Part shown: piece after piece, positions 9,625 to 46,769 of the stretch
How positions within the stretch are numbered: position 1 is the first letter of the stretch
How the letters are laid out: each line of letters opens with the position of its first letter
Source of the DNA: Fragilariopsis cylindrus CCMP1102
Lineage: Eukaryota; Bacillariophyta; Bacillariophyceae; Bacillariales; Bacillariaceae
DNA length: 64,000 nt
NCBI GenBank assembly: GCA_900095095.1
Contig: FMBT01000361.1
Span: 124,001 to 188,000, forward strand
Direction: 5' to 3'
Made by a program: the position numbers and the translations under genes
Notes under the pieces: generated by a model
The model's database searches: none
What the model was told of the DNA's origin: nothing
What the model saw: the letters and a program-made list of their open reading frames with translations, nothing else

Positions 9625-10246
9625 TCACAGACGTTGGAGCGGTGGTATTTCTGGTGGTGACGTCGTAAATTGTGGTGGTGACGTTTTTTCGCGTGTTGTT
9701 CTTAAACTTGATAGCCGTGAAGTAGTATTATCGATCTCCGTACTGGTTAAGCCATCTGACGATTTAGTTCGTTGCGGTGGTCTCCGTCGAGCAGGCCGTC
9801 TAGGAGAAACAATATCAGTAGCAGTAAAATTATTAGGATCGTTGTTGCCGTTGGCATCACCTCCGGGTGTCACCAAACCATCACCTGATTTGGTCCTTAA
9901 TGGAGGTTTTCGTCGACGAAAGGCAGCCATACTAGATTGAGACCGTGCGGGGGCACGCATAGTAGCCTGTTGCATGGCCCCTAACATATCGCTTGATTTT
10001 TGACGCCGAGCAGCATTTCGTTTAAGGGCTATTTCTCGGTACTCGTTTTTATCTCGGCGTTCCCTCCTTTGCTTTCCTGATGGAGAACCAACGATATCGG
10101 CCACGTCATCTATATTGTTACTGTTCTTACCATTACTACTAGCACAGTCGTCTGTGCTGTTGTCATCGTTATCATCGTCGGAAGATGGTGGTAGCATGAC
10201 TACGTATTCATCGGGTGCTAAACTTTCTTCTTCTTCTTCTTCTTCC

Positions 10247-10280
<34 letters not shown>

Positions 10281-11388
10281 ACTCGGCATTATCCTCATCA
10301 TTCTCATTATCATTCTCATTATCATCCGTACTACATTTACTACTAGTATTGTCACAACGATTGCTGAAAGATAAACCTTCTCCTGATTTCGTTCTTTGAG
10401 GTGGTCTCCTTTGAATAGGCATAGCAACACAATCTCCTGATTTGGTTCGTTGCGGGGGTCTTCGGCGACGAGGCTGCGTTTTCTGTATTGACTCTTCGCC
10501 ATTGTCATTATCGTTATCGTTATTATTGTCATTATCTTTATTATCCTTAGTTGAAACTCCTTCACCGTTTCTCGTTTTCGTTGCTGCTACTTCCGCAACT
10601 GTTGTGCAATCGTCGTTATTTGTTATACCATCACCGGATTTCGTTCTCTGAGGTGGTCTCCTTCTAAAGCTCCCCTCTCTTTGTGTGCGTCTTGCCGTTG
10701 CTGCTATTGTCGACCCCCGTTGATTCGTATCGATATCGACGATATCATTAACATCCATTATGTCATCACCGTGATCCGATCCTATCTTTAGAGGGACTAC
10801 GATAGGCGGTCCGAGTAGTTTATCTTCCAAGTCTATTGATGATCCACGTCGACGTTTATGATCTCCTGTTAACGTATCCTCCGCTTCTAATAGATCGGAC
10901 AACTCTGCTTGTGCTTCTTCGTCATCACTAATACTACCGCAACTACTATCGTCGCCTTCATTACCGTCGCCCCCAAGGCCTCTCAAAAAACCGTGGTCGT
11001 CATCATCGTCATCGTCATCGGCATCACTGGTGTCACCATCGCCCTCTTTGTCGTCCTGTTTTCCCATTAATTTATTAAATTTTTGAATGACCGCTACTTC
11101 GCCACCACCAACATTATCGTTTCCCTCATCATCACTGTCGTCTTCCTCCTCCTCCTCGTCGTCGTTTTTTGATATAATTTCTTCTGTGTCCATTGTCGTG
11201 GTATCACTAGCGATGGAGACGCTTACCGAACTATCCGAATTGGAATCCGAAACTATCGAAACGCTGGAAGATACATCAGCATCATCATCATCATCGTCGT
11301 CTTTATCACGTTTGTCGTCGTCGTCGTCGTCTTCGTCGTTGGAGTCAACATCGATATCGGATGGATGAAAGTTGTTGTGATTGTCCAT
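9625..11388 (-). CDS. Acidic low-complexity protein with five RRxPPxRTKSxDG repeats
   Basis: 587 residues from the ATG at 11388, one uninterrupted exon. The N-terminal 180 residues are dominated by Asp/Glu/Ser runs. From about residue 235 onward the same basic motif occurs five times: RRRPPQRTKSGDG (near 10670-10625), RRRPPQRTKSGDC (near 10470), QRRPPQRTKSGEG (near 10415), RRKPPLRTKSGDG (near 9915) and RRRPPQRTKSSDG (near 9795). The repeats are separated by acidic or neutral linkers of very different length, including a run of Asp/Glu near 10235-10285. The core R-T-K-S fits basophilic kinase targets, and PPxR could be an SH3- or WW-type ligand; both are inferences. No enzyme domain, signal peptide or membrane segment is visible. 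The alternating acidic and basic composition suggests a disordered nuclear or scaffold protein. Confidence 0.75.
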
Positions 11389-13185: not shown

Positions 13186-16100
13186 ATGGTGGTGACGACT
13201 ACGACAACTACAACGATGGCGAATGATGACACAGAAGAGATTGTCGTAATTTTGGACACACACTACACCATGGGGGAAGATTTTTTTGGAAACGGAGACG
13301 AGAACAAAAACGAAGAAATCAGCAATAACAATGTTTCAAGTAATCACGGAACGACTAAATTTGATGTCGCGAAATACATCGCACAGGAACTAATTGTCGC
13401 TTCCACTAGCAATTACCAAAGTATTAACTCTAATAGGCAACCCCAGAGAAGACAATGTCAAAATCAAATCGAAGTTGTGGCGCTGATCGTCTTAAAAACT
13501 AAAGGAACGAGTCATCATTTATACGACGAAAACAAAAATACTGACGAACACCGACTAATAGCTTCTTGTAATACTGCACGTGCGAGATCTCTACCTAATT
13601 CATGGCTACAACAATTAGTAGTTTCTCACAATAAACGATCGTCGCGACCTAGTACCACCGGTCTCGATGACATTGAATCCAATGACGACAAGGGCTACGA
13701 CGAGGACAATAATGATACTGAAAATGATAGTTATACTATTTCCGAAAATGATACTGATAATGTCAATTATGATAAAGATATTGACTACTATGAAAAGTTG
13801 CCAAGTCTCATAGAATACAGAATTAATGATAAAAATGATGATCCCAAATCGATGTCGCAGCGTTTACAGAGCATTGTGGTATCGTCGTCAAAATCAAAAT
13901 CGACATCAGTAACATCAACAAGAAGCTGCGAGACGTGTGGAATAAAAAGTAAAGGGGATTTTATCAGTGCAATCGTAGTAGCAGCGGACACCTTAAGTCG
14001 CAGAGCAAAAAAAGGATCAACAATTGCAACCAGTAGTGATCATTATATTACTAATATAACTACCGATACGATCGGAGGAGGAGAAACATCGTTGCAATCG
14101 TCGTCGCCGTCATCGCCATCGAGATCGCCATCGCCGTCATCTAGATCGTTGCGTCGACGAAGAATTGTGTTATTGACTGATGCTCGGCACAAGGTTTTAG
14201 TCAGTAGCGAAAACGAGGGAACCGACAGTGAAAATAATGATGCCGCAAAACAATTGTTGTTTGATTTATTTCTAACCACTTCCAATATAAATTGTCAATT
14301 AGAAGTAGTTGGATTGGGTTTTAGAAACGAAACGGACAACAGCGACGACGACGACGATGACGACGACGACGACGAGGAAGAAGGAGATTCCAATGTTGAC
14401 GATGACGATGACGGCAATGAAGACGACGAAGACGACGATGATTTGGCCGATATCCAGGATAAAAATGAATGTTTGTTGAGGGATTTGGCTCGTAAACTCG
14501 GAGGATGCGTTTTAGAGGTGAAGGGAGGAGGGTATGGCGATGAATATGGTGTAGGACGTGTTTTGGATCACATATTGAAGTTGAAACCAACCAACAACAA
14601 CATTGATGATACTGATGAGATTCTCATTGACGACGATGACGATAAAAAAATCAATACAATATGTGAACTTGATAGTAAACTTGTCGACTGCGCTTCGTCA
14701 ACTGTCCTCACGGAAGCATCTGTATCTGAATCTCATTTAGTCACGAAAACGAAGAAACAGAAACTGTCCCACTATTGTGACGACGATAGAAGTGATACCA
14801 ACGAGAAATGTGATGACAGTAGCGATGCCGGCGACAATGGATTCGATTCCAATATAGTCACCCCCACTGATGATGACAATACCAATACCAATACAACCAA
14901 TACATCAGCATCAAATGATATGATCATCGACCTCACCAACCCGTCCACGTCGGAATGCTCCATGGACAACAATCCCCAGATGAAATCTAATACTCAGCAA
15001 TTGCACCACACTAATTGTGATCCCGAAATATCTATAGTCGAACCATCTACTATTAGAGCGATCAATGATGCAGCAACTGAAAAATGCAATCTCAATGACG
15101 AAAAGGATGGCGACAATAACAGCGAAGACGACGATGAACCCCAAATCTTGTCATCAAATGCAATTAACGCTAATATAACATATCCTCACCGTCGGCCACA
15201 ATGTCACGTATATAATTTTTCTGCCACTGATATTGATGGCAATACTCTTCAGGATCGTTTTTGTGACAAATGTTATTGCGTCGTGTGTGATGTTCCAGCA
15301 AATAATTGTACAAAGTGGAATTATCATTGCCGGGAAGTCTACGTACCTCGATCTCAACCTGATATTATGGACGAAATCTTGTTAGAATCACCCAACACAA
15401 CCAGGCGGAATCATTTTGCCGCGGCCGCTTTTGCTGCTGCCGCCGCCTCTTTATCAAATTCACATCGTAGGGATCTGTTTAGCTCATCACTAACAGCTTC
15501 TGAGACTGTTGGTGTTGCTATCACTAGGTCAACGAAACATCGTCGGAGTTCTGGCGTTGTAGGTGCCGATTTAATCGTAGCCAAGATCCGTGAAGAAAGC
15601 GCAGTTGAATACATAGCACCTTATAAGCTTACAGATGTATTTCGTAGATACTTGGTGAATGTTTCCGCGGATGTAGCTGCTCAACTTGCGATAGATCACG
15701 AAGATTGTATAATCTGTCATCGTCCATTGGTTGTTGATGAAAAAGCTAACGGAATATCGCAGCAATCGAAGAAACCAAAAAAACGAGACACAGTTATTGC
15801 GATAGCATGTGGGCACAAGTTTCATCGTGGTTGTATTCTTGATTTGATGACGAAGTCCAATTTAAGTAATAGATGTCCATTCAAATGTGATGAACTTATA
15901 GGTGAGCCACAGGGTACGTGTCCCTCTGGGAGCATGTCAACAACAAGAGATTCTAGTAGGCATTGCTCTGGCTACGACAACAATCCCCTTTCGGCAGGAA
16001 CGATCATCATTAAATATCACATTCCTAAGTCGCGACAGCTGAAGTACCACGAGAATCCCGAGGTCTTTCAGCTTGGTTTATCTCGTATCTGTTACCTGCC

Positions 16101-16413
16101 TGATGTTCATCAGTCTAATCAACTTCTACTAAGACTACAGTACGCATTCAGTCACGGATTGACCTTCAAAGTCGACAGAAGCAATCAATTAATATGGACT
16201 ACCATCCCTCATAAGACCTCCATGACAGATGAATTTATTGGTTTTAACTACTTTGAAAAATGTAAGCAAGAACTAGATAATTTGTGTGTTCCACAAGCTG
16301 AAGAATTGCCGAAAGTATCAAAAGGCGATGATGTATCAGGGATCGATGATGACATACGCCGTCCATGGGGAAAGGAAGTTGTGGATAAAGATCACCGAAG
16401 AAAGTTTCATTAG
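13186..16413 (+). CDS. Ku-type vWA / zinc / RING / Deltex-C-terminal E3 ubiquitin ligase
   Basis: 1075 residues, no intron. I start at ATG 13186 (ACCATGG context); the frame is open from a GTG at 13150. Residues about 18-400 follow the order of a Ku80-like von Willebrand A fold: EEIVVILDTHYTM, KFDVAKYIAQEL, IEVVALIVLKTKGTSH, GDFISAIVVAADTL, RRRIVLLTDARH, CQLEVVGLGF, with acidic and Ser-rich insertions between. Residues about 665-715 carry a Cys/His module (FCDKCYCVVCDVPANNC) like the CYCYVCD motif of plant proteins. A RING follows at about 840-898 (CIICHRP, CGHKFHRGC, RCPFKC). Then comes a Deltex C-terminal domain at about 900-1045: QGTCPSGSM, GTIIIKYHIP, RICYLPD, LTFKVDRS, PHKTSM and a late QEL. 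Deltex RING-DTC proteins are E3 ligases that bind ADP-ribose and can ubiquitylate it; the HKT histidine is present. The Ku core barrel is absent, so this is not a normal Ku subunit. Nuclear damage signalling is inferred. Confidence 0.85.
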   Translation: MVVTTTTTTTMANDDTEEIVVILDTHYTMGEDFFGNGDENKNEEISNNNVSSNHGTTKFDVAKYIAQELIVASTSNYQSINSNRQPQRRQCQNQIEVVALIVLKTKGTSHHLYDENKNTDEHRLIASCNTARARSLPNSWLQQLVVSHNKRSSRPSTTGLDDIESNDDKGYDEDNNDTENDSYTISENDTDNVNYDKDIDYYEKLPSLIEYRINDKNDDPKSMSQRLQSIVVSSSKSKSTSVTSTRSCETCGIKSKGDFISAIVVAADTLSRRAKKGSTIATSSDHYITNITTDTIGGGETSLQSSSPSSPSRSPSPSSRSLRRRRIVLLTDARHKVLVSSENEGTDSENNDAAKQLLFDLFLTTSNINCQLEVVGLGFRNETDNSDDDDDDDDDDEEEGDSNVDDDDDGNEDDEDDDDLADIQDKNECLLRDLARKLGGCVLEVKGGGYGDEYGVGRVLDHILKLKPTNNNIDDTDEILIDDDDDKKINTICELDSKLVDCASSTVLTEASVSESHLVTKTKKQKLSHYCDDDRSDTNEKCDDSSDAGDNGFDSNIVTPTDDDNTNTNTTNTSASNDMIIDLTNPSTSECSMDNNPQMKSNTQQLHHTNCDPEISIVEPSTIRAINDAATEKCNLNDEKDGDNNSEDDDEPQILSSNAINANITYPHRRPQCHVYNFSATDIDGNTLQDRFCDKCYCVVCDVPANNCTKWNYHCREVYVPRSQPDIMDEILLESPNTTRRNHFAAAAFAAAAASLSNSHRRDLFSSSLTASETVGVAITRSTKHRRSSGVVGADLIVAKIREESAVEYIAPYKLTDVFRRYLVNVSADVAAQLAIDHEDCIICHRPLVVDEKANGISQQSKKPKKRDTVIAIACGHKFHRGCILDLMTKSNLSNRCPFKCDELIGEPQGTCPSGSMSTTRDSSRHCSGYDNNPLSAGTIIIKYHIPKSRQLKYHENPEVFQLGLSRICYLPDVHQSNQLLLRLQYAFSHGLTFKVDRSNQLIWTTIPHKTSMTDEFIGFNYFEKCKQELDNLCVPQAEELPKVSKGDDVSGIDDDIRRPWGKEVVDKDHRRKFH

Positions 16414-19611: not shown

Positions 19612-21372
19612 TTAGTTTTCTACGTTATCATCGAATAATTTGAAGTTGGATTGCTTGTTTGTAATCCAAACTGCACTGTTCAACTTTAGGTTTCGGTTGT
19701 TGTCCTTCTTTGCAGGGAACATGAGTTTTCCGAGGAGTTTGTTGATGCTGCAGTATTCTTTGTGCAATAATGCATAATGGGTGCCTTTTCCTAGTGACCA
19801 CGTGGTTTGTGATGTGTCTGCCTTCGAGGAGGTTGAGACATAGTCGTTGCACGTGATTACGATGTTCATGGTCGGAATATAGATTACCCATTGGTAATGT
19901 TTCTCGGGTTTAGGCGAGACGAGATTCCCCTCGATTTCCATTTGGCAGAGGAGTGGGTTGGTGGTGGTGAAACCCTGTTTGCTAAAATTTCCGCCGTTTT
20001 TTCCTAGAAAACATCCCTGTACGTCACATGGGAGGCCGTGGTTGGTGGCCTCGGACATGTAGTCTTGTAAGTTGAAATAGTCTTCTCCTTTGTGGTTCCG
20101 GAGGATCGTGAACAATGGTTCTTTGTCCTTTGTGTAGTCGTGAGCAGGCGTGAAGAGGCCGTCGAGCCAATCCTGAGGTACACATACACCCATGATTGTG
20201 AACATCGCTTGTAGTGCAGTTCGCGGGTTATCTTCATTCTTGCAGGTTAGGATGAATGGTCGTTCCGTTTCCGCGACCATAGTAGTTGCAAAGTGGATGC
20301 GTAGTGTTGCTCCGACACTTGCGTTGGCGTGGTGTTTGTTTTTCTCCTTGGAAGGTGTGCAATTATGTTTGAATACTTTGGCCTCGGGATCTACCGTGGC
20401 TTCGGTCTCTTCGGTCTGTTCCCTGGCTTCGGCCTCTGCCGCGGTTTCGGGACCAAAAAGAGTTCTGTTTACCGGAGTCGTTGGTTCAGTGGTGTCATCT
20501 CCGATTCCTGGCGCTGCATCCGCTGGTGAACCTGGGGTGATCGGAACCGTTGGGATGACTGGAATGACGGCCAGTATGTTTGCTGGTGGAATGACGGCCG
20601 GAATGTTTGCCGGCGGAGTGGGAACAGGTGCCGTATGGGTGTCGATTGTGAGATCGATTGTTTCGGCAAGTTTACGATGGCGTTGTAGTTCCATGTCCAT
20701 TAACACAAGTGCTGTAGTGTTGATTTCGGGGACGTTGAGGTGGGGGGTGTTGGTGAAAGCCTCGGCGATGGAGGCCATGATGGACTGTGGCAGGGAATCG
20801 TTCTTGCTGCGTTTTGCGTCCGGTTCGGTGGTTGTACCTTTGCGGAGAAGAGTTCGGATGTGACGGGCTTTAGCTAGCTCGTAGTCGGCGTTGTACACTT
20901 GGGCGTCGGTGATTTCGGTGTAAAAGTCGCGGTTGATGAGAGCACTGATCTCGATGTAAGCATCACCTAGGGATTCGAAGCCTGGAATGGTGTGGTTGAG
21001 AGGCATGTTTGCTTTAGTAGGGAGTGTGTTGTTGCAATTTGCGTTTTTGTAATTTAGTGAAAGCGATTTATGGGAGTATTGTGGTGAATTGTACCAGGCT
21101 AAATCCGTGTAACTTTCGATTATAGTTCGTTGAGCAAACTTCGTTTGTGTGATTATTGTCGCATTGTGAGCCGGTGTTGGTTTTGAACCTGTTGGTTTGC
21201 CTAGAGACAGGTGTGAGTTCAGGTTTTTCGTTGTTATTGGAGCCGTTTCGGTCGTGGCGTTCTCCGTGATGGGTGATTGCCGTTCCTGCAACGGATCTAG
21301 CATGGTGGGTAGAGTTGAACCGTTTGTTTCTATTTGTTCCCGCATGAGATTGGTAACGGATTTAGAACTCAA
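19612..21372 (-). CDS. DIRS element, additional ORF of unknown function
   Basis: 586-residue open frame after the recombinase in element orientation. The N-terminal half is rich in Thr, Pro and Ala, with a PPANI repeat near the middle; the C-terminal half looks globular. No domain is recognised. Some Ngaro-type elements carry an extra hydrolase ORF, but no hydrolase motif was seen here. Confidence 0.6.
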   Translation of the reverse strand: MSSKSVTNLMREQIETNGSTLPTMLDPLQERQSPITENATTETAPITTKNLNSHLSLGKPTGSKPTPAHNATIITQTKFAQRTIIESYTDLAWYNSPQYSHKSLSLNYKNANCNNTLPTKANMPLNHTIPGFESLGDAYIEISALINRDFYTEITDAQVYNADYELAKARHIRTLLRKGTTTEPDAKRSKNDSLPQSIMASIAEAFTNTPHLNVPEINTTALVLMDMELQRHRKLAETIDLTIDTHTAPVPTPPANIPAVIPPANILAVIPVIPTVPITPGSPADAAPGIGDDTTEPTTPVNRTLFGPETAAEAEAREQTEETEATVDPEAKVFKHNCTPSKEKNKHHANASVGATLRIHFATTMVAETERPFILTCKNEDNPRTALQAMFTIMGVCVPQDWLDGLFTPAHDYTKDKEPLFTILRNHKGEDYFNLQDYMSEATNHGLPCDVQGCFLGKNGGNFSKQGFTTTNPLLCQMEIEGNLVSPKPEKHYQWVIYIPTMNIVITCNDYVSTSSKADTSQTTWSLGKGTHYALLHKEYCSINKLLGKLMFPAKKDNNRNLKLNSAVWITNKQSNFKLFDDNVEN

Positions 21373-21512
21373 ACAGTAAATTATGTGCGAGAGTAAAACC
21401 GGAATGGCATCAACTCAAAAACGTTGTGAATGCTGTATTCGGTAGCTCAGTGGTTTTGAGCGCGACTAGTTGTGAGCAAATTGGTTAGGGTAAATGTTTG
21501 TTTTTATATTAA

Positions 21513-22619
21513 TTAAGTATCTTCGTTGTCTAAAATAGGGGTCGGGATGGCGCGAAAGCCTATGTTATGGAAGAAAATGTTCTTGCCCATCGCTGTTGAC
21601 AGGCCGGCTGAGAAAACAGCGATCTGTTCGTGGATGTAGTCGAGAAAAGTGTCGCTGCTCCAGCGTCCCATTTTTCGAATCGTGTGCGTTGGGGTGTTGT
21701 GTAGGTGCATCGCCATCGCCCCTCCGGCGCGTAAGCTGTGTGAGCTTATTTGCGCTGCTTCAAACCCGTGTTTTTTCATGTCGAGGTGGAGTACCGCTGC
21801 TTTGAGCGCGGAGTTAATTTCGGTTGCGCGCATTACTTTGCCCTGGTGAGTCGGGTGTTCGAAATACGTGCTAATTATAGCAGTCGGGACTGAAGTGTGA
21901 GCAGTGATGTGCTTGACTCTTCTAATTAGTGCTTTTATTGGGCATGTATCCGTATTTGTTGTAAAATGGTGTATTGCCTGGTTTCGTTTGCCATTTTTCT
22001 GATTCGATATTCGAAGAGTTGCTGCTGTGCATCTGATTAAAAGGGCGTCGATTGGGAGGTTATGGTCGAGGATGGTGTTCTTGTCCCATAATGTGACGTC
22101 CTGGAGTCTGAAAGCTTGTGTTAGCTTTTTGGTTGAGGTCGGAGTGTACGTGTACTCTCCGACTCGGAGGAGATAGTAGAAAGCGATGATGGCTATATCT
22201 GCCACTGCCTTTTGTTTTTCGGTGCCTGTTAACGCGTAGTGGTACATGTATCTTGGGACACTGATTGGTACTGCTAATTTGAATTTGGCAGGGGGGTCGG
22301 TTCGTCGGTAGCCCTCAATAAGTTGGCCGATTTTTTTATAATATTTTCCTTGCGTGTTAACCACCGGACTTTGTTCTCCGTCCATCTCGAAACGCGCTGT
22401 GATGGCCCGAAGCGATACTTGGACTGTTTGCGCACGAACTTGTTGTTTTTGTCGTGAAACGCCTCCGGATCGCACATGTTGGGCGAAACTGACCAGCACT
22501 TCGATTTTGTCCTGTTGAGTAAGTGTACTGAGTTTTTCGTCATAGGTAGGAAAGTAAATGGCGAGGTAGTGGGTCCAAGCTTTCCAAAAACGTATTCTTT
22601 CGTTGGTAGTCGACGCCAC
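21513..22619 (-). CDS. DIRS element, tyrosine recombinase
   Basis: 368-residue ORF. Landmarks of a tyrosine recombinase are HSLRAGG (the H-x-x-R pair) and GRWSSDTFLDYIH, which holds the late W/H position and the likely nucleophilic Tyr. In DIRS elements this enzyme integrates a circular intermediate in place of a DDE integrase. It overlaps the RNase H ORF, as is common in the family. Confidence 0.88.
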   Translation of the reverse strand: MASTTNERIRFWKAWTHYLAIYFPTYDEKLSTLTQQDKIEVLVSFAQHVRSGGVSRQKQQVRAQTVQVSLRAITARFEMDGEQSPVVNTQGKYYKKIGQLIEGYRRTDPPAKFKLAVPISVPRYMYHYALTGTEKQKAVADIAIIAFYYLLRVGEYTYTPTSTKKLTQAFRLQDVTLWDKNTILDHNLPIDALLIRCTAATLRISNQKNGKRNQAIHHFTTNTDTCPIKALIRRVKHITAHTSVPTAIISTYFEHPTHQGKVMRATEINSALKAAVLHLDMKKHGFEAAQISSHSLRAGGAMAMHLHNTPTHTIRKMGRWSSDTFLDYIHEQIAVFSAGLSTAMGKNIFFHNIGFRAIPTPILDNEDT

Positions 22620-23377
22620 GACTCCAAAGTCGATTGCTTCTGTAGCAGCTCCGAAGAGACTTTTGACGTAACTTTGTTGCTGAGGAGGAACAGAGTCCAG
22701 GATTCGTCCTGTGGTGGGGGAAAATGAGCGGAAAAGTCGGTGAGGAATGTAGCATTGTCGAGACTATGTTTGCGGGATGCAACGTCTGCCATTTTGTTGT
22801 AAATGCCGGAGATGTGTTCCACTGAGAGTAATGCTGTTCTGTTGGTGTGCAGGCGTACCGCCATGGCTCGGAGGATTCGTGCTGCGACCAATGATGTGCT
22901 CGTTCTGAATTTGTACATCCACGCTACTGCCGGGAGGTTGTCGCACCAGATTGAAACGCTGACGCCCCGGAGTGTAAATGGGTCCACGCTGTGCTCGAGA
23001 ACAAGCCAGTGCATGAGTATTCCGGTTAGTTCTAAATCTGATATCGTGAGTTGCCCGCTTTTGTTGGATGACGAGCAAAACTGGTCTCGTATTTCTGCGG
23101 CCACTCGAAGAACCATACGATCGGGACGACGGTCGTTGTGCCGCTGAACCAGACTCCACCGACTCCCCATTTGGATGCATCTACGAAGCCTTGATAAGAT
23201 GGTGGATGTTCGATGAGTTCGGAGACATGTGTTGGTCGTCGTCCGACTAGACGGATGAGTGCTGACCAATCCCGGAGGATGTTTGCGAAGTCGTTTGTTA
23301 CTTCGATTTTTCGACCCTGGTTTTTGGCAGCTGCGGCCATGTAACAATTTAGTTGTCCCAGGATTGGTTTGCCACAT
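22274..23377 (-). CDS. DIRS element, RNase H part
   Basis: Contains the RNase H-like landmarks DLELTGILMHWLV, SIWCDNLPAVAWM and IYNKMADVASRKHS, in the order found downstream of DIRS reverse transcriptases. It overlaps both the RT ORF and the recombinase ORF. Confidence 0.75.
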   Translation of the reverse strand: MWQTNPGTTKLLHGRSCQKPGSKNRSNKRLRKHPPGLVSTHPSSRTTTNTCLRTHRTSTILSRLRRCIQMGSRWSLVQRHNDRRPDRMVLRVAAEIRDQFCSSSNKSGQLTISDLELTGILMHWLVLEHSVDPFTLRGVSVSIWCDNLPAVAWMYKFRTSTSLVAARILRAMAVRLHTNRTALLSVEHISGIYNKMADVASRKHSLDNATFLTDFSAHFPPPQDESWTLFLLSNKVTSKVSSELLQKQSTLESWRRLPTKEYVFGKLGPTTSPFTFLPMTKNSVHLLNRTKSKCWSVSPNMCDPEAFHDKNNKFVRKQSKYRFGPSQRVSRWTENKVRWLTRKENIIKKSANLLRATDEPTPLPNSN

Positions 23378-24741
23378 GGTATGGCAATGGTCGCGAATTG
23401 TAGTCGTCCATGAAGTTTTTGGAAACGTTTTACTTCAATCTTGTCTTTGCGGCGTATCGCCTTGAGTTCGGTAAGGAGTTCTTCGCATTTACGTTGTGGC
23501 AGTTCGATGGTGCGTGAGATTCCATCGAAGAGCCAACCTAGGATTTCTTTCCTGGTGTCCCAGATTCCGTCCTCGAAAAGCTTCTTTTCCGAGACCGGAT
23601 GTGCCATCTTGCTTCCGGACAATTCCGGAGGCGGAAATACCTTGGTGATGCCGTCGAGGATGCGACGTGAAAACTGGAGTAGATCGGCTTCGTTGGTGCT
23701 CTGGATTACGCCGATGAAATCGTCGATGTAGACCTCGATGAGTTGAAGGAACGTCCGTTTATCAGTTTCCGAGTCGATTGGAGTGTGAAGTTTGTTGATC
23801 TTGGTCCAATCGATGTCCATCATGATGTTTTCCATTGGTTGCTCGTCGATGATGACGTCATGTCGCATCTTGTCGTTGATGATGTCGCGTGCCGTTTCGG
23901 TTGCGGCGCAGAAGAAAGGCGGGCTTTCGCTCCAGCCCATCTGGAGGGCGTCCGGGATAACGAGTTGTACCGGGTCGTCCGGGCCTGCTCCTGGTAGGAC
24001 GTATGCAAAATTCCATGCATCTTTTTCGCTGACTGCCATTCGCCAGTAGCCATCCTTTAAATCTACTTTTGAGAACATAAAAGGTGTCGTTTTGTCTTTC
24101 GACAGAGCCATTGCCCATATGATTCTGGGGATAACGTTCCCTAGTTCGTACATTGATTCTTGTTTTGCCAATGATTTGTCGGAAGCACTGTTTACTGAGT
24201 CCAGCTTCTTTCCGTTGACGAGGAGCTGGAAGGATAAGTCTAGGATCATCCGATAGACGCGAGACTTGTGCGGTACTGCAGCTAGTGGTGAAATTTTTAG
24301 ATTTGGGGGGAAATCATGTTTGATGTCCTCCCAATTGACGAGGCGACAGGAGCCCTCCGTGACGCGTTCGAGGGCTTCCTTTTTGCATGCGGCTGCTGCT
24401 TCGGGTACGTTTGCACTGGAGTGTGCTCCACTCGCGATTGCTAATTCTAGGCGCTCCAGAGTCCAATCATCGCCGCAGTCGACTGGGCAGCCTTCGAGTG
24501 CGTATTCTAGCAGATCCGGACCTGCTGGGTGATTTAAAACTTCATGACGAGGAAACATTAAACCTTTGAATTGTGGTAACTTACTTTGGGTTGGAGTAAA
24601 CGCATTGTCGTCGGACTGGTTGTCGTCGGGGCGGTGGAGGGATCGGTCGACAATACGGTGTCCTGTACGGAGTGTCTGGACGGCATGGCGAACGAGGTGG
24701 TGGTGGTATACTCGGTAGTGTGAACCGCGGGTGTGGCACAC
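23032..24741 (-). CDS. DIRS element, reverse transcriptase
   Basis: Contains RT blocks in order: YRMILDLSF, FSKVDLKDGYWRM, the catalytic YIDD, and a later KEILGWLFDGI thumb-like block. It ends in the start of the RNase H fold (GFVDASKWGVGGVWF). The YIDD box and its context match DIRS-order RTs. Confidence 0.9.
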   Translation of the reverse strand: MCHTRGSHYRVYHHHLVRHAVQTLRTGHRIVDRSLHRPDDNQSDDNAFTPTQSKLPQFKGLMFPRHEVLNHPAGPDLLEYALEGCPVDCGDDWTLERLELAIASGAHSSANVPEAAAACKKEALERVTEGSCRLVNWEDIKHDFPPNLKISPLAAVPHKSRVYRMILDLSFQLLVNGKKLDSVNSASDKSLAKQESMYELGNVIPRIIWAMALSKDKTTPFMFSKVDLKDGYWRMAVSEKDAWNFAYVLPGAGPDDPVQLVIPDALQMGWSESPPFFCAATETARDIINDKMRHDVIIDEQPMENIMMDIDWTKINKLHTPIDSETDKRTFLQLIEVYIDDFIGVIQSTNEADLLQFSRRILDGITKVFPPPELSGSKMAHPVSEKKLFEDGIWDTRKEILGWLFDGISRTIELPQRKCEELLTELKAIRRKDKIEVKRFQKLHGRLQFATIAIPCGKPILGQLNCYMAAAAKNQGRKIEVTNDFANILRDWSALIRLVGRRPTHVSELIEHPPSYQGFVDASKWGVGGVWFSGTTTVVPIVWFFEWPQKYETSFARHPTKAGNSRYQI

Positions 24742-26125
24742 TCGGGAGTGTGAACCTAGGCGGTACGCTGAAGTCGAAGAAACATTATAGCAGGTGATGG
24801 TAATGAGAAAATTATATATGAAAAGTTAACATAGATTGTTTTATAGTTATTACTTAATTACTGTATACTCGCTACTGGCGGTTATTTGGTTGTTGCTTAC
24901 ATGGTGGTGGCCTTTTTTAACATCTCGATGGCCTTGTCCGGTTTATAAGCGCTGAAATCGACTGGTGGGTGTTCTTGCATTTTCCGTTGCAGTAGCAAAA
25001 GAGCCCATAGTTGAGACAATTACTCGATTTGAGGCCTAGGGCCTCGCACATTTCTTTCGTCGATCCGAACTCGTTGGCAGTCCGGATGTCCGAGAGGCGG
25101 GGGAAGTTGCCGTCATGTGTTGCGCGGTGGTCCGCGATTAGTTTTCTGATGGCGTCGCATCCCGGACCCTTGCGTGTTGTAGGTTTGTCTTCTTTGGTGA
25201 TTTGTCAGCATTTCGCTTCCGGTCTGTATTCCGGTCTGTAGGTGTTGGAGGGCTGGGTCGCGGCGTTGCCGGAGTCTTCGCTGGAAGGAAAATTGGACCG
25301 TAGCTGTGCGACAAGGACAAGTTGTTGTTTTCGATACCCAGGATGAGAAAATCGATGTTGAACTTCGGGGAAACGCTTGGCGGCTACGTCTTCTGCTGTG
25401 CAAAAGACGCCGAAATACCGCTCAAGATGGCGGCACAGTTGGTAAATAATTTCGTTGCTGATTAGAGCCCGGAAGGTGGCTATGGCGGATAGACGACTGT
25501 AGTTGTCGAACAGGGCATCGAGCAGGCGCTGGAGTTGAATTGACGGTGGCGCTCTGTCGCCAATTACCTGTATTAAACCTAGTTGAGTTAATTGCAGGTT
25601 GGTGATTAGGGCATCGATGGTGTCCGGAATCTGTGGCGTTCCTGGGATGCTGCGCTCTATGTCGGCTGACGTTGGTACGCATTGTGCGTTGAGAGCGCGA
25701 ACACTTTCGAGTCTCTCTCTCTCGGCCGTCGACCTGGTGACGTAAGTGAGAGGGCCAAGCCCCCCATGGGGTTTGGTGCCTTCGAAGTTCGTTGGGGCTA
25801 GACGCCAATCCGTGATGGATTTCCGAAATTCGGCCGTGATGATTTGGCGGAAACGGGGGGTTCTTCTTGATCATTGTTGAATGAAGTAGGTGTCAATGAC
25901 GGAGTCCTTTTCGCCTTTGTCAGGAGCCTTGTTGTATTTCAACCCAACCGCTGTTGTTGCACCGGTGCAAAAAATGGAGCTCGTGTGGTTGTAGATGTGC
26001 CCATCCACATAAATTCCACGATCTGGTGCCCATACTGTCCTTTGCCTTTTTTGGTTGGTCCGGCTTGGTCGAGTTTGGGTGACTCTTGGATTCCGCTGCA
26101 AGAAACTTGAGCACTTGAAATCGGT
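24742..26125 (-). other. DIRS element, coding-like segment between gag-like and RT parts
   Basis: Coding-like sequence in several overlapping frames, which I do not assign to a named protein. A short ORF near the 5' end of the element (28354-28599) encodes a peptide similar to part of this segment, so an internal duplication is possible. Confidence 0.4.
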
Positions 26126-27478
26126 TCATGTCCTCGGAGGTGAGGGGAAGGCTGGGCCTCTGTTGAGCATTGCATGTAGGTGATCCCCAATACTTTGGTG
26201 AGGTGATGCACCCGTGTGACCCCCAAAACTGAAAGCCCCATTGCTTGCCGATGCTCCAAAGGTGAAAGCCGGTGCACCATGATACCCTGGGTGACCCGGA
26301 GTGGGTTCACCAAATGGGTTGGTGGCGCCCGGTGTGCCGTACGGATTGTGGGACCTGGCTGCCGGTTGTTGGAACGTTGACGATGAGTCGTTGCTAAAAC
26401 CGTTGCCTTCGAACGGGTTGGCCGCGATGTCAAATGGTAGTCCGGTCCTTTCGGGTCTTTCGGATGAAACTGGGTGCCCGGTTCCATATGGCAGTCCGTC
26501 GCCTTCGAAGGAGACGTTGCCTGTTGCTGTCCTGGTACTTTGATGTTGTCTGGCCAATGCTGCTGCGATGCGTTGCTGTTGCGCTAGTTGCTCCTCGAGT
26601 TGGACATTTCGTTGTAGTACCGCATTGAGATTAGCCTCGTTGGTTGCAGTTTCTCCTGGAGCATTTCCTGTGCGCTGACGATTATTGCGCAGAAGTGTTT
26701 CATCGTCGACGTCAATGACGTCTTCCGGTGCTGGGGTCGGGCGGAACTCCTTGCTGAGGCAGTTCAGGACTCCATTGGCGATGGCGGTGCCAAGTGTATT
26801 GTCGTCTTCGCTGAAACCCGTCTGTAGGTCCTTGTAAATATCCACCGAATGTGCAAGTGTGAACCAACGTGGTTGGTCCGGTTCCAGTTGCATTTGACTG
26901 GTGCTGTCGGCGTTGTTGGGGAGGGTAGTATCCCTGACCATTGCCGCTGCACGAAGCCAGCTATAAACGAATTTGTCATGTTTGTCGGTTCTGCTTTTGA
27001 ACATTGTTATTAAGTCGCGGACGCTTTTGTGAGAATTGTCGGCATTGAAGAAATCCGTGATGGTTTCAGCCCGGATTGGGATTAGTTTCATCATGGGTCG
27101 TTGCTTGATCAGAGCGCTCGTGACATAGTCCAGGCCCTGATTCGCAGTTGAGTCGGCATCTTTCGCAATCCAGACGTCCGATGCCACTAGGTCGTTGGCA
27201 TCGAATATCACTGCCTGTGGGCATGATGTGATTGTGATACCAAAACGTTGTGTTTGGTAAGCTCGTACCCATAAAATGGGGGTGACCTTCTTCGGTTGAG
27301 TGTTTAACACTGCAACTCCCAAGGTTCCGATTCCGCAGAACAACGCTTGGTCCGGTAGGTGAGTGGTCCTGTTGAAAGTGAGTGGGTGGGTGATGAGTTG
27401 GCTTCTGGAGTTCGACTCTTTGGCCCGGGTTGCCTCACCGAGGATTGCTGTTTGAAATCCTCCCTCTGTGAACGCCAT
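26126..27478 (-). CDS. DIRS element, gag-like ORF
   Basis: First long ORF in element orientation, 450 residues. The N-terminal 220 residues look globular. They are followed by a Gln-rich coiled-coil (NAVLQRNVQLEEQLAQQQR) and a Gly/Pro/Phe-rich tail. Position and layout suggest a gag-like protein; no specific sequence match was recognised. Confidence 0.55.
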   Translation of the reverse strand: MAFTEGGFQTAILGEATRAKESNSRSQLITHPLTFNRTTHLPDQALFCGIGTLGVAVLNTQPKKVTPILWVRAYQTQRFGITITSCPQAVIFDANDLVASDVWIAKDADSTANQGLDYVTSALIKQRPMMKLIPIRAETITDFFNADNSHKSVRDLITMFKSRTDKHDKFVYSWLRAAAMVRDTTLPNNADSTSQMQLEPDQPRWFTLAHSVDIYKDLQTGFSEDDNTLGTAIANGVLNCLSKEFRPTPAPEDVIDVDDETLLRNNRQRTGNAPGETATNEANLNAVLQRNVQLEEQLAQQQRIAAALARQHQSTRTATGNVSFEGDGLPYGTGHPVSSERPERTGLPFDIAANPFEGNGFSNDSSSTFQQPAARSHNPYGTPGATNPFGEPTPGHPGYHGAPAFTFGASASNGAFSFGGHTGASPHQSIGDHLHAMLNRGPAFPSPPRT

Positions 27479-31085: not shown

Positions 31086-33686
31086 ATGTTGGATACGATA
31101 AATAGCTATATGTTTTCTGTCGTGACGCACTATTTCGCAAGTTGTGGCGAATCTTTGGAAACGATATTGAATGATAACACTGGAATTAGATCGTCGTCAA
31201 TTGTTACATCATCGGAAAATCAGAATCCAGAACGTAATCGGCATAACACTGATCAACTGACCGCCAATGAAACTAAACGACAACCGTTAGAGACTCAAGA
31301 GATTCATGGCACGGATCTAGTCTTTTTTCCGATTCCTTCTTCTGAAATATCTTCTTCTTCTTTAGCAGTTTCGACTGCGAAGAAATATCGTATACTGGAA
31401 GACCGAACTAACAGGAAGGTTAACGACGGGATGCATCCACCACGAAGGCACAGAGAAATTTCTCGAAACGAGGAAGTCGCATCGAGATGGATCGCTATGG
31501 GATCCAAAGAGAATATTATCTACAAAACGTCTCATTCGGTGCCGCCACTCGAAAACAAATGCTACATATTAGAAGGCCAAACAGTGTTTCCATATGATGA
31601 AATCGAGTCCCGCAAGACTAAAAATCCTTTTATTCAGCAGAACAATAATAACAACAACAACAACAATACAAGTATTCCATCGTCGTCATTATCATCTACT
31701 AGTTCGGCAACAACAAGCGCACCAACACCAAGGATGGCAACCACCGAAAACGTCCAAGAGCCTCATCACTGGATGAGTGCCGAAGATCCTAATACAGGGA
31801 AGCTGTACTATTACCATGAGATTACAAGAGAGACTCAATGGAGGCCTCCTTTGTGCTTAGTTAGTGACGACGAGCGCTTTGCCATGGAAGAAAAAGAGCA
31901 GAAGGAAAAGGATTTCTTTGCAGCCATGGAGGCAAATATTTTGAGCTCCTTATCTCGGGGTGTCATACCAGGAACGCCAAAGGACGGTGCAAGCGAACAA
32001 CGAAAATCCTTAGGAATTGGAAGTCGAAAGAGCCGAAAGTCTTCCCTAATAGGATCAGCAGATGAGAGACCTGAGCTGACGCGGACTATCAGTGCGATGG
32101 ACGAAACGATCTTGATAGATATCATTCGTAGACAACCTTCTTTCAGAAGTGTAAAATCTTCTAGACAATCGCTCCATCTAGAAGACCTCACAACTACTAA
32201 CGGACGGCGTAGTTCGGGCGTCCGCGATGGATTCGATTCATGGTGTAACAGTAGCCAAGAAAACTACTATAGTGAACATCTAGAAACGTTAGAGGAAGAT
32301 TCGGGAGATGCTTATAATGCTGGCAATTTTATGTCTGATTTACTAAGCAAAATTCCAGACGAAGACAGTAGCTTGAACAGTTTATACGACGACGAAAGTT
32401 TTTCATTGCGGAGTGATGGTGGAAAGTTCGAACAATCTAGTTTGACTGGATTTGGTTTGAGCTGGAAGGAGACACAAGCACTGAATAAACTTGTTAGTCT
32501 GACCAAGGAGATGATTGATACCGATAACGAAGAGCTGGATATAGACGATGACTCGTCAATAGTAGTAGACAATGAAATATTCGACGCCACCGCGGGTCTT
32601 GGTAACAAAACAGAAAGACCGAGAAGACGAAAGGAGGACGAACATAGAAATTCCTTGCTTCATGATAGAAAACAAATTCAAAATGCCTGTACAAGTCATA
32701 CCCGTGATCATAAAAGAGCTACAGAAGGAGAGATTCGACGTGTGTTGCCCCGAGAAATGGACTTCGAAGGTTCCGATGGAGAAGATGTGAAACCAAAAAG
32801 TATACCAACACCGAGAAAAGAAAAAGCTGCAAGAATGGTTGCTAACTCTGGAAAAAGTGCAGCAGATCTGTTGGACCTAAGAAAGAAGAAACTTAAGCGT
32901 CGAAACACCTGTGGAACCATGTTTATTCGTACAACGATGTCCGCACCCGATAAAGATGCCACAATCAGATGTGTCTGCGGCGTGTATCGCTCGCACATAT
33001 TATCTTCTGAACACGAGACTATAAATGATAAGGAATCGAATCCCTTTGATGTTTTCAATGATTATAATTTAGACCACGAAGGTTGTGTAGTGACGCGAAA
33101 TAGCATTCCAAGTCTTGACGAGGTTGCCACTTTTTTCCGAGATGTCTTTTTTAAGGCTCAGATGGAGGCAGATTGTATTATTCTTTCCCTGATTTATGTT
33201 GAAAGATTGATTAAAGTAACGCATGGATGTTTGAGGCCAAAGACATGTAATTGGCGCTCGCTTTTGTTCAGCACAATGATTCTGTCTAGTAAAGTTTGGG
33301 ATGACTTATCTATGTGGAATGGAGATTTCAGTCAGTCATGCCCGTCGGGTGTTAATTTTTCGTTGCAACGAACAAACCAGCTCGAACTTGCAGTTCTGAA
33401 TACTCTTCACTTCAAGGTAAAAGTCCCAGCTAGTGAATATGCAAAATATTACTTCCTACTTCGGTCTATGTTAATCAAAAGTGGTCTTGCGGGAGAAAAT
33501 CTTGGCTCGTTAAATCCACTGGATGTCGAAGGGGCACGAAGACTTCAGCAAGTGTCTTCTCAATTTGAATCCACCTCTCTGAAGAAATTTGATACAGCTG
33601 CTGTGATTCAACGGAGCAAAAGTCTGACCACCCGATCAGATTATAATATTACAAAGGTTGGTCTTGAACAAGTTGTGAAGATGTAG
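31086..33686 (+). CDS. WW-domain cyclin Y-like protein (paralogue 1)
   Basis: 866 residues, one exon. A WW domain lies at about residues 226-258 (HHWMSAEDPNTGKLYYYHE then TQWRPP; both Trp present). After a long Ser/Asp-rich linker comes the cyclin Y signature: RRNTCGTMFIRTTMS and ATIRCVCGVYRSHI, then the cyclin box at about 670-800 (ADCIILSLIYVERLIK, CNWRSLLFSTMILSSKVWDD, LSMWNGDFS, VKVPASEYAKYYF). These blocks match animal cyclin Y, which activates CDK14/16-type (PFTAIRE/PCTAIRE) kinases; the wider group includes yeast Pho80-like cyclins. Pro-rich targets of the WW domain are unknown. A paralogue with the same architecture lies tail-to-tail to the right; both end in a similar LEQ(V/L)V motif. 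Confidence 0.88.
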   Translation: MLDTINSYMFSVVTHYFASCGESLETILNDNTGIRSSSIVTSSENQNPERNRHNTDQLTANETKRQPLETQEIHGTDLVFFPIPSSEISSSSLAVSTAKKYRILEDRTNRKVNDGMHPPRRHREISRNEEVASRWIAMGSKENIIYKTSHSVPPLENKCYILEGQTVFPYDEIESRKTKNPFIQQNNNNNNNNNTSIPSSSLSSTSSATTSAPTPRMATTENVQEPHHWMSAEDPNTGKLYYYHEITRETQWRPPLCLVSDDERFAMEEKEQKEKDFFAAMEANILSSLSRGVIPGTPKDGASEQRKSLGIGSRKSRKSSLIGSADERPELTRTISAMDETILIDIIRRQPSFRSVKSSRQSLHLEDLTTTNGRRSSGVRDGFDSWCNSSQENYYSEHLETLEEDSGDAYNAGNFMSDLLSKIPDEDSSLNSLYDDESFSLRSDGGKFEQSSLTGFGLSWKETQALNKLVSLTKEMIDTDNEELDIDDDSSIVVDNEIFDATAGLGNKTERPRRRKEDEHRNSLLHDRKQIQNACTSHTRDHKRATEGEIRRVLPREMDFEGSDGEDVKPKSIPTPRKEKAARMVANSGKSAADLLDLRKKKLKRRNTCGTMFIRTTMSAPDKDATIRCVCGVYRSHILSSEHETINDKESNPFDVFNDYNLDHEGCVVTRNSIPSLDEVATFFRDVFFKAQMEADCIILSLIYVERLIKVTHGCLRPKTCNWRSLLFSTMILSSKVWDDLSMWNGDFSQSCPSGVNFSLQRTNQLELAVLNTLHFKVKVPASEYAKYYFLLRSMLIKSGLAGENLGSLNPLDVEGARRLQQVSSQFESTSLKKFDTAAVIQRSKSLTTRSDYNITKVGLEQVVKM

Positions 33687-34461: not shown

Positions 34462-36224
34462 TTAATTGACCAGCTGTTCTAAACAAACGGAATCTTTTAA
34501 AACTGGTTCCCCTGAATAGAGGTCGTCTGTCTGTGGTCCAGTTAAAATACTGCCATCCATACTTTTCGATCGACGATCTCGAGGTTCGTTATTCGAACTG
34601 TGCTCAAAATATGGACTTGTAACTGATTCCAATCTCCGAAATGCATCATTCTTACCTAATGGTTTCTCGTCTTCCTTAACTAATCCACTACGAAGAAGCA
34701 TGGTACGGATCAAGAAGTAGTACTTTGATGACGATGATAGTTTGAAAAAAAGCATTTGTTGAACAAATGAGTGCGATTACTGAAAGCAAAGATTATTCCA
34801 AGTGATTGTGATTTCAGATTCCACGATTCCACCATACTGTATACGTGTATAACGTACCTTTGCGTACTCCGATGCCGGAACTTTAACATTGAATTTCAAA
34901 CACTTCAGCAAGGCTAATTCCAATTCATTAATTCGGGATAACGTAAAGGAAGCTAATCCAGCTGTATGAGCGGTAACATTCGAAAAATCGATATTCCACA
35001 TGCTTAAGTCATCCCAAACCTTAGAAGCTAATACCATACATGCAAAGAGAAATGAACGCCAATTTCCAGTTGTTGGAACTAGAATTGCGTTGGTGTTTTT
35101 TATCACTCTCTCGACATAAATGAGCGATGTAATTATAGTATCGTGTTCCATTTGGGAACGTTGATAAAATCCCTCATAAAACTCCAGTACTTCCATTAGC
35201 GTTGGGACCTTGACTTCTGACGATTTTCTCTTTTTTGATGATCCACATGCATCGTCAAACACGTTATAGTCACGAAGTGACCTAGGTATATCCTTCTGAA
35301 CACTTTGGACAATATGGGCTAGGTAAACACCGCAAACACATTGTATGGTAGCTTTAATGTTTGGGTTTGTCATACTATTTTGTAAATATATCGTACCTCC
35401 TGTGTTACGTCTGGTGTGACCAGTCGTCGATGACATGGAGACTTTTGACTCATTGACGTCTATTCCTTTTTGGGAAATGTTTACATCATCATCAAAGTCC
35501 TTTGTCGTGTTCGATTGGATTTGCTAGAATTGGTCTCGTGTAGAGACCGTGCACCCGGCAATGGAGGTCGTCCTGCGATAAGCGCTGAGTTTCGTTTTGT
35601 ACGTTTCTGACTAATGATTCTCGGAATTGCTGCTTTCTCGTGGTCGTTTGTTATTTGAACACCATGCATACCAGAAATTGTCCTGACATGCAATTTACCG
35701 CCGGCAGGTAGCGGTTCCTTGGGTGGACCGAGCATAGCGGTTTTTTGGAATGGGACCCCTCCCTGACATACTTCTCCTTTAGCCATACTGTTTATAATAT
35801 TCTTCTCCATTTCATTAAAAAACTTTCTAGCTATCTGCATTTGTTCCTTTTTCTTTCTTTTTTCTGTAGCTTTCAGTATGGCTGGCTTCTGCCATTGTGT
35901 CTTTCTTGAAATCGTATCATAGTAGTATGTTCTACCGGATGATGAATCTATTGCCCTCTTCCAAATAGCCTTGGGCATCGATGGCGATTTCTCTCTACTC
36001 CCATTATTCTCTCCCTTCGACATGTCAATTGCTTCTTTCATGGTTGGGATATTTTTTGGCGTATTCGTATTCTCGCAAGTCGCAGAAGACCAAAAACTGA
36101 GGTCGTTTACAAATGATTTCAAGATCGAATTGCATTCTGATGTATCGTTGAATGCCGTTAGTTTCAATTTGCGTAGCTCTTTCTCCATCACTGTTCTGTT
36201 TTGGTGTGAATTTGAGCAGAACAT
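34462..36224 (-). CDS. WW-domain cyclin Y-like protein (paralogue 2)
   Basis: From ATG 36224. A WW domain lies at about residues 85-115 (IWKRAIDSSSGRTYYYDT then TQWQKPA). Next come the cyclin Y lead-in (RRNTGGTIYLQNSMTNPNIK, ATIQCVCGVYLAHIV) and the cyclin box (HDTIITSLIYVERVIK, GNWRSFLFACMVLASKVWDD, VKVPASEYAK). An intron (34723-34857, GTACGT...AAAG border) splits AK from YYFLIRTMLLRSGL; the paralogue has no intron here. The C-terminus ends LEQLVN, like LEQVVKM in the sister. Between the WW part and the cyclin part the frame changes near 35490-35503. One missing A in an AAA run (coding strand) would give continuous RQKDFDDDVNISQKG, so an assembly indel is likely. It is a shorter sister of the left gene and has lost much of the acidic linker. 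Confidence 0.85.
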
Positions 36225-45205: not shown

Positions 45206-46769
45206 ATGGAAGATGATGAACTAGATGATAGTAGTAACGGTATTATAGAGGTGGAACTGGAGCCCGAGAGACTCCAGGACGGTGCTGGAGGTAATAGACG
45301 CCAATCCATGTCTCACGAAGAGGAAAAGGAAAGACGGGCGAGTATAAAAGCTATTCTTGCGGATGATTCCATAACTCCTCATGAACGGCGACGATCGATC
45401 CAGAACTTAATGGACGGTAGAAGGAGCAGTATCGGAACGAGGAGCAGTATCGGAACAGCTTCTATAGCTTCGATGAGCAGTGGAGGGAGTGTTGATCTAT
45501 ATGGGTATGGTGATGGGAGTCCGGACGGATATCAAGAGGAATTGGACAATAATAACAGCGATGACGAAAACGAGAACGGCAATGGCGCCACATGTTGCAT
45601 TCCTGTTTCCAATGAGAATACGAAGCGTGCAGAACTCACGCGGCCTCCCTGCAACCATTATGATAGAAATTGTACCTTGATTGCACCCTGTTGCGGAGCC
45701 TCGTTTGGATGCCGTATTTGTCACGATGATAGTCCTATTCTACCACCTTTACTTATTGCGAAAAGAGCCTCTCGACGTTCCACAAGAAGCTCTTCTATGC
45801 CGGGTGGATTCACTAGCATGGAGGATAGTACCCACCGTGATACACATCATACCATCGATCGTTTCCTTGTTTCTGACATTATCTGTCGCGAATGTTATAC
45901 CAAACAGAGTTCAAAAACGTACGGTACATACATAAATCTTTTCATTTTCGCTAACAAAAAGATAATGGACATGAAAATGTTTATGGTCACGGTCGGTCAA
46001 TGTCACAAACTTACCTCTTCTTTGTTTTAATTCTTGTCTCCTCTCTTCTGAATCTGAATCGATCTGATTCTTCTTCTTATGAAGAAATAATTGTGTCAAT
46101 TGCGACATTCAGTTCGGGGAATATCACTGCAGTATCTGCAACTTATGGATGGCGAATGACGAAAATCCGTACCATTGTCCGGACTGTGGTTTCTGCCGAG
46201 TTGGTGGTGCGGAAAACTTCCAACATTGTCACGATTGTGGTATGTGTATAGACAAAACCCTTTATTCCAATCACAACTGCAAGAGTGGGAAATACAAGTC
46301 GAACTGCCCGGTTTGTCAAGAGTTCCTTTTCAGCTCTCGGAGCGCTTCTCATGAGATGCCATGTGGTCATGCGATACACTGGGAATGCTTCCGACAGTTA
46401 GCGACTCATGACTCACGTTGCCCCGTTTGCAAGAAAACAGCAGAAACAAAGGATAGGATGATGCCTACGTGGAATGCAATGGCACAGGGAATTACTTTCC
46501 AACCTGTCCCTCCTGAACTAGCCCGAGTTGTTAATGTAAGCTGTATCGACTGCGAAACATCTGAGGACGCTCGGGCCTGGCATTTTATTGGGGTCCAATG
46601 CCGCACTTGCTCATCGTTTAATACTGTGGTGGACAGGATTATTATGTCCGGTGAGGAAGCAAATGAATTCTTGGAAGCCCTTCAGAATAGAAATGACTTG
46701 GCAAATAACGAGGAAGGAAGTGAACGAATCAGTCGGCGAAGAATTAGCAGAAGACGGTCTCATTTCTGA
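45206..46769 (+). CDS. CHY zinc finger / RING E3 ubiquitin ligase, PIRH2 (RCHY1)-like
   Basis: Two exons, 45206-45918 and 46085-46769 (166-bp intron; the join reads QSSKT then NNCVNCD), 465 residues. The start is the ATG at 45206 (ACCATGG). The N-terminal 145 residues are acidic and Ser/Arg-rich, with a short repeat RRSSIGT/RSSIGT. The CHY zinc finger starts at about 146 (CNHYDRNCTLIAPCCGASFGC) and carries a Ser-rich insertion before IICRECYTKQ. It passes into the CTCHY part (CVNCDIQFGEYHCSIC, HCPDCGFCRVGG, HCHDCGMC). A RING-H2 lies at about 313-357 (CPVCQEFLF, MPCGHAIHWECF, CPVCKK), and a zinc ribbon follows (CIDCETSED, CRTCSSFN). This order is that of PIRH2/RCHY1 and plant CHYR/MIEL E3 ligases, which drive target ubiquitylation in stress and DNA-damage control. 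Targets here are unknown. Confidence 0.9.

Follow-up and report, generated by a model that had tools for sequence, protein, structure and literature searches.

The stretch analysed here, 64,000 nucleotides of the diatom Fragilariopsis cylindrus CCMP1102 (contig FMBT01000361.1, positions 124,001 to 188,000; hereafter "the window"), carries an open frame of 1,075 residues that joins a probable N-terminal vWA domain to a RING finger and a Deltex C-terminal domain (DTC), and which, with somewhat better than even confidence, we take to encode a Deltex-family RING ligase aimed by its vWA adaptor at protein lysines, the ubiquitylation of ADP-ribose having probably been lost. In such a ligase, the vWA domain would bind a partner protein, a flexible acidic linker (with a possible SUMO-interacting motif) and a Cys-rich module would lie between it and the catalytic end, the RING, going by homology, would recruit a ubiquitin-charged E2, and ubiquitin would end up on lysines, either in the bound partner or in its neighbours; the DTC would be recognisable yet devoid of the histidine that activates the 3' hydroxyl of ADP-ribose, and the choice of target would fall to the vWA instead of ADP-ribose. 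The vWA is proposed as the partner-picking module because vWA domains are protein-binding modules, e.g., that of INTS14, which alone binds INTS10, within a complex resembling Ku70-Ku80 (PMC7347597). The parts are known, and their combination was not found in the literature, in that none of the paper titles and abstract openings among the matches listed describes a vWA together with a Deltex RING-DTC. Deltex ligases draw interest for the attachment of ubiquitin to ADP-ribose by the catalytic histidine of their DTC; if the reading proposed here is true, a natural Deltex protein with another targeting domain and without that histidine would be a natural separation of functions, would show what the DTC fold does without ADP-ribose chemistry, and would add a further Ku80-like vWA employed outside Ku.

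The frame contains one stop, is preceded by an in-frame stop immediately 5' of it, and is most likely a single-exon gene. An open run this long would arise by chance with a log10 P of about -27 (stops make up 5.6% of the trinucleotides at 10-20 kb), and codon-usage scores, for which eight further long open reading frames (ORFs) of the window served as the training set and which cover the first 1,020 codons, are above zero in all 17 sixty-codon windows, linker included; the mean score is negative in the other two frames and in the 600 bases on each flank. A scan for GTRAGK donors within the ORF returned none, and a tblastn search of the protein against the window gave no further match below E 0.94. 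At the C-terminal end of the protein, the RING sits directly N-terminal of the DTC (Pfam PF18102, E 1.5e-18, 67.7 bits against a cut-off of 25) and has all eight ligands (C841, C844, C875, H877, H880, C883, C897 and C901); the closest sequences in the PDB are those of DTX2, DTX1 and DTX3L, with the DTX2 and DTX1 chains aligning jointly through RING and DTC (phmmer, E 9.6e-17 and 2.7e-13). A first-pass annotation of the same DNA, made from the sequence alone, had described a single uninterrupted 1,075-codon frame, a Cys module between vWA and RING, and a RING followed by a Deltex DTC, and these claims are borne out by the coding signal along the whole frame, by the presence of the cluster C693-C715 (for which Pfam offers only DUF3295, E 0.18, under its cut-off), and by the PF18102 match, the eight ligands and the DTX1/DTX2 alignment through both domains, respectively.

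In the ADP-ribose pocket of the DTC, the catalytic residues have been reported as H582 and E608 in DTX2 and as H707 and E733 in DTX3L (PMC10810221, PMC7615817, PMC11460948), H594 of DTX2 and Y719 of DTX3L are further pocket residues (PMC11460948), and a DTX2 isoform binds ADP-ribose through S521, H535 and H547 (PMC11345397). Adding 47 to the isoform numbering turns the latter into S568, H582 and H594, and the published residues can be placed uniquely, since a single offset fits S, H and H on DTX2 and a single one fits H, Y and E on DTX3L. The number of the DTX2 serine, which we take to be 568, agrees with the 47-residue shift of S521. Strict conservation of His582 and Glu608 across the DTX family is reported, with every tested substitution of either residue impairing NAD+ ubiquitylation (PMC7615817), and the DTX3L H707A mutant had its DNA ubiquitylation abolished (PMC11460948). 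Of the pocket positions examined, the algal protein retains the catalytic Glu only (E1029, aligned with E733 of DTX3L and immediately preceded by an alignment gap); the His that follows Pro1008, H1009 of HKT, is also kept. The catalytic His is present in four of the four other proteins aligned, namely DTX1, DTX2, DTX3L and a bacterial DTC protein. The first-pass annotation had coupled the protein to ADP-ribosylated targets and had itself named the pocket residues as the point on which this could fail, and the coupling found no support when they were inspected: the catalytic His has become Pro1008, the loop bearing the Ser (S568 in DTX2) is missing, and the second pocket His (H594) has become Phe1020. 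With the catalytic His replaced and the published DTX2 and DTX3L mutants impaired, the protein has probably lost all or most of its capacity to ubiquitylate ADP-ribose and nucleic acids, and RING-driven lysine ubiquitylation may remain.

Residues 17-470 most likely adopt a vWA fold that is interrupted by long inserts. Neither a vWA nor a Ku model of Pfam matched residues 1-505 untrimmed; after five internal low-complexity stretches had been cut by eye, the 240 residues left gave a Ku_N match over the cut-off (22.2 bits, cut-off 20.6, E 1.3e-4) and a VWA_2 match under it (19.5 bits, cut-off 27). Against the PDB, this hand-trimmed domain gave five matches, none significant, of which the first three were Ku80 (E 0.55 to 0.61) and the remaining two Dishevelled-2 (E 0.84 and 1.1); by way of comparison, all nine PDB matches that the vWA of human Ku80 yields up to E 10 are Ku80, and with Ku70 as the query Ku80 is matched at E 0.18. 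Because the cuts had been picked with the fold already in mind, the trims were tested with controls. With each boundary moved randomly by at most 8 residues, seven of ten trims listed Ku_N or VWA_2, four listed Ku_N and one had it over the cut-off, unrelated families also being listed, all under cut-off; in three shuffles and one reordering of the trimmed domain, neither Ku_N nor VWA_2 appeared (0 of 4). Two AlphaFold models, made from single sequences without relatives, are of low confidence (mean pLDDT 33 and 36).

When residues 1-480 were aligned to 155 residues of human Ku80 at a constant cost per long insert, with local shuffles for comparison, the score at an insert cost of 16 was 85 against 43.6 +/- 7.4 for the shuffles, none of 1,000 reaching it; at higher costs, the Ku80 score was reached by 0 of 300 shuffles (cost 18), 2 of 1,000 (cost 20) and 3 of 300 (cost 25). 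Nine 480-residue control pieces (eight from other proteins of the window and one from the C-terminal part of this protein) scored 27 to 44 at cost 16, and reversed Ku80 scored 34 in the insert-tolerant alignment. The alignment spans residues 19-332, which resemble Ku80 (39 of 126 aligned residues identical). Integrin alpha-L scored 79 at cost 16 (0 of 1,000 shuffles), equalled Ku80 at cost 18 (73 each) and overtook it at 20 (67 vs 63) and 25 (59 vs 51), so that, among the five vWA domains aligned, Ku80 is best at the lowest insert cost, tied at the next and behind at the two higher ones; p44 scored 70 at cost 16 (reached by 13 of 1,000 shuffles) and 53 at cost 20. Two further templates were discarded as no different from shuffles at cost 16, Ku70 scoring 44 (reached by 148 of 250 shuffles) and Rpn10 scoring 54 (66 of 250). 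Judged by eye, the first blocks of the integrin alpha-L match are out of step with the fold, and the match rests mainly on residues 342-388; the last third of the domain resembles, also by eye, ordinary vWA domains, and residues 322-480 alone rose well beyond their shuffles against none of Ku80, Ku70, p44 and Rpn10, p44 being best (reached by 49 of 400).

As integrin alpha-L overtakes Ku80 at the higher insert costs, descent of this vWA from Ku80 is put at about even. Of the Ku80-like vWA of the first-pass annotation, then, the vWA fold, as a probable one, and the likeness to Ku80 over residues 19-332 stand, and specificity for Ku80 is less certain (E 0.55 in the PDB, and integrin alpha-L ahead at higher costs). 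The associated idea of a DNA-end receptor is not supported: the Ku core beta-barrel is absent from the 11 Pfam matches of the whole protein up to E 10, the stretch that follows the vWA is of low complexity, and a DNA-encircling ring is therefore not expected; in Integrator, moreover, a Ku-like vWA complex serves another purpose (PMC7347597).

Several observations weigh against the reading of a vWA-directed, lysine-modifying ligase and are best considered together. All RING models in the Pfam scan remained below their own cut-offs, and the last Cys pair of the RING is C-x3-C in the algal protein vs C-x2-C in DTX1 and DTX2, for which reasons activation of an E2 is not assured. The bacterial DTC with an intact catalytic His shares the Phe at position 594/719, so the Phe1020 change may be harmless; the CCT codon of Pro1008 is one base away from CAT, which makes a sequencing error possible, and Pro1008 is seen in one sequence, no relatives of the same architecture having been found in the non-eukaryote collections searched. 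As for the vWA, its assignment, predicted from sequence, depends on removing or discounting the inserts: two automatic hydrophobicity trims that left more of the inserts in gave no vWA or Ku match (0 of 2), and with nothing but ordinary gap costs there was no clear signal, the Ku80 score being reached by 31 of 400 shuffles. Two fragments of the region gave weak matches to unrelated Pfam families, the best being Orthopox_B11R (E 0.0019, under cut-off), and single weak E-values therefore need to be treated with caution here.

The model of the first-pass annotation, in which the protein would use its Ku-like surface and a DTC that reads ADP-ribose to place ubiquitin on ADP-ribosylated targets at sites of DNA breakage, would agree with the likeness of the vWA to Ku80, with the recruitment of human DTX2 to damage and its effect on break repair (PMC11345397), and with the binding of DTX3 to Ku80/XRCC5, the ubiquitination of which it promotes in human cells (PMC7778541), but such a damage-response ligase is distinctly unlikely in a protein whose pocket has Pro for the catalytic His, Phe for H594 and no S568 loop, and whose Pfam matches include no Ku barrel, WWE or macrodomain. 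A vWA derived from Ku80 could also act as a decoy, still binding the partners of the Ku80 vWA and bringing the ligase to end joining without touching DNA; the colinearity and identity of residues 19-332 with Ku80, the score at cost 16 that no shuffle reached and the lack of a signal from Ku70 are all in its favour, yet descent is not secure with integrin alpha-L equal or better at costs 18, 20 and 25, and we regard this as unlikely. Quite unlikely, in our estimate, is a captured Ku80 vWA that makes the ligase a Ku80 mimic, docking on the Ku/DNA-break machinery and ubiquitylating it, perhaps in mating and meiosis of the alga, with ADP-ribose chemistry traded away.

A signalling role in the diatom sexual cycle is possible, if doubtful: members of the Deltex E3 family were upregulated at mating in four of four diatom species, alongside replication and meiosis genes (PMC12618581), to which this protein might be added, but the section of that paper on mating names neither Deltex genes nor architectures, and neither this paper nor the one on DTX3 and Ku80 is directly about the algal protein. 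Finally, two genes might have been fused by the assembly or by an accident of frame, as the vWA and the Cys/RING/DTC parts are joined by about 185 low-complexity residues; with codon-usage scores positive through this linker, no stop and no GTRAGK donor, this is very improbable.

Among known systems, DTX3L shares the RING-DTC with the algal protein by alignment and DTX3 by description, and both the algal protein and DTX3L lack the A-R letters that DTX1 and DTX2 have close to the DTC pocket (motif from PMC11460948), although DTX3L retains His707 and Tyr719 where the algal protein has Pro1008 and Phe1020. DTX2 and DTX1, the top PDB sequence matches over RING and DTC, have a RING of similar length, about 30 residues separating the second and third ligands as in the algal RING, an insertion absent in DTX3L and DTX3 (PMC11460948); unlike the algal protein, they have WWE domains (PMC7615817) and intact pocket residues. 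The vWA of Ku80 (XRCC5) is colinear with residues 19-332, and the metal site is degenerate in both (DTHYT in the algal protein, DVGFT in Ku80, vs DGSMS in integrin alpha-L), but the algal protein has long inserts, no detected Ku barrel or C-terminal arm, and a last third of the vWA that fails to match the Ku80 fragment. Plant RGLG ligases, likened by description, are RING E3s like the algal protein and presumably carry a vWA but, to our knowledge, no DTC, and we know of no ligase activity for INTS13-INTS14 or Treslin. The latter two, likewise compared by description, show Ku-like parts outside end joining, INTS13-INTS14 as a Ku-like complex with vWA domains (PMC7347597) and Treslin with a Ku70-like N-terminus (PMC8807876).

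Searches for relatives returned none from viral contigs (whole protein, parts, alignments and the Cys motif), from genome contigs (whole protein), or from phages, plasmids, PHROGs and NCBIfam; as these collections contain no eukaryote genomes, the absence says nothing about algae. With the RING-DTC alignment, genome contigs gave one match, to a protein of different architecture from an uncultured Endozoicomonas sp. (strain Endozoicomonas cretensis, contig OODV01000002.1, 2331-5453 on the plus strand), which is 1,040 residues long, matches Macro domains over two stretches and has at its C-terminus a DTC (E 7.3e-53) with the IHHKT motif retained; this prokaryotic Macro-DTC protein perhaps acts on host ADP-ribose signalling.

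Within the linker, IIDLT, likened to what we take to be the definition of a SUMO-interacting motif, is a hint only: when residues 481-660 were shuffled 20,000 times, the pattern occurred in 0.46% of the shuffles, and a looser SUMO-interacting pattern, matched by 27% of shuffles, shows no excess. A possible link between the Cys module and RIN13-like proteins of plants was dropped, the literature search having given nothing relevant, and a search for papers on diatom Ku80 likewise brought nothing of use.

Table 1. Features of the vWA-RING-DTC gene and its product, in coordinates of the window.
Feature	Position	Strand	Basis
Entire gene, one uninterrupted frame of 1,075 residues	13186..16413	+	Frame translation, codon usage, stop statistics
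Probable vWA, first two thirds (residues 19-332): IVVILDTHYTM, TKFDVAKYIAQELI, EVVALIVLKTKGT, KGDFISAIVVAADTL, RRIVLLTD	13240..14181	+	Colinear with Ku80, long inserts between
Probable vWA, last third (residues 342-470): NDAAKQLL, LEVVGLGF, LLRDLARKLGGCVLEV	14209..14595	+	Aligned with integrin alpha-L in blocks 321-358 and 372-388; by eye for residues 389-470
Acidic insert within vWA (residues 384-424), partly a 3-base repeat	14335..14457	+	Composition
D-, N-, S- and T-rich linker of low complexity (residues 475-660)	14608..15165	+	Composition
IIDLT (residues 580-584), SUMO-interacting motif-like	14923..14937	+	Pattern search
Cys-rich module C693-x2-C-x-C-x2-C-x6-C-x5-H-C715	15262..15330	+	Residue pattern
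RING finger (residues 841-901), final pair C-x3-C	15706..15888	+	Ligand pattern; DTX1/DTX2 alignment
DTC (residues 909-1031)	15910..16278	+	Pfam PF18102; DTX1/DTX2 alignment
Site of missing 6-residue loop (carries S568 in DTX2), near residues 999-1001	16180..16188	+	Alignment gap
Pro1008 (CCT), position of catalytic His582 (DTX2)/His707 (DTX3L)	16207..16209	+	Alignment
Phe1020 (TTT), position of His594 (DTX2)/Tyr719 (DTX3L)	16243..16245	+	Alignment
Glu1029 (GAA), position of catalytic Glu733 (DTX3L)	16270..16272	+	Alignment

Elsewhere in the window, scans returned no tRNA and no Rfam family reaching its gathering score, and a sigma-70 promoter scan was set aside as meaningless in a eukaryote. 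Upstream, 9625-11388 (minus strand) encodes an acidic protein of 587 residues with, by eye, several near-repeats of RRPPQRTKSGDG and no Pfam match at 1e-3. Downstream, the block 19612-27478 (minus strand) is rich in G+C (about 0.50 over 20-28 kb), and its ORFs resemble, by eye, those of a retroelement that encodes a reverse transcriptase and a tyrosine recombinase; of its six minus-strand ORFs of at least 180 residues, the three scanned with Pfam had no match at 1e-3. A protein with WW and cyclin domains (31086-33686, plus strand) is convergent with two minus-strand ORFs at 34777-36224, one of them a cyclin and the other WW-like by eye, which are perhaps one gene with an intron.

A second RING protein of the window (46149-46769, plus strand) combines RING and zinc_ribbon_6, which is presumably the plan of RCHY1/Pirh2-type ubiquitin ligases, and 47534-50074 (minus strand) encodes nuclease domains of the XPG family, behind which comes a long tail, unstructured as judged by eye. 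Two long adjacent ORFs of 1,741 and 1,385 residues (51691-61125, plus strand), the latter full of IQ calmodulin-binding motifs and the former seeming by eye to end in them, may together be a single giant gene with an interruption near 56917-56967.

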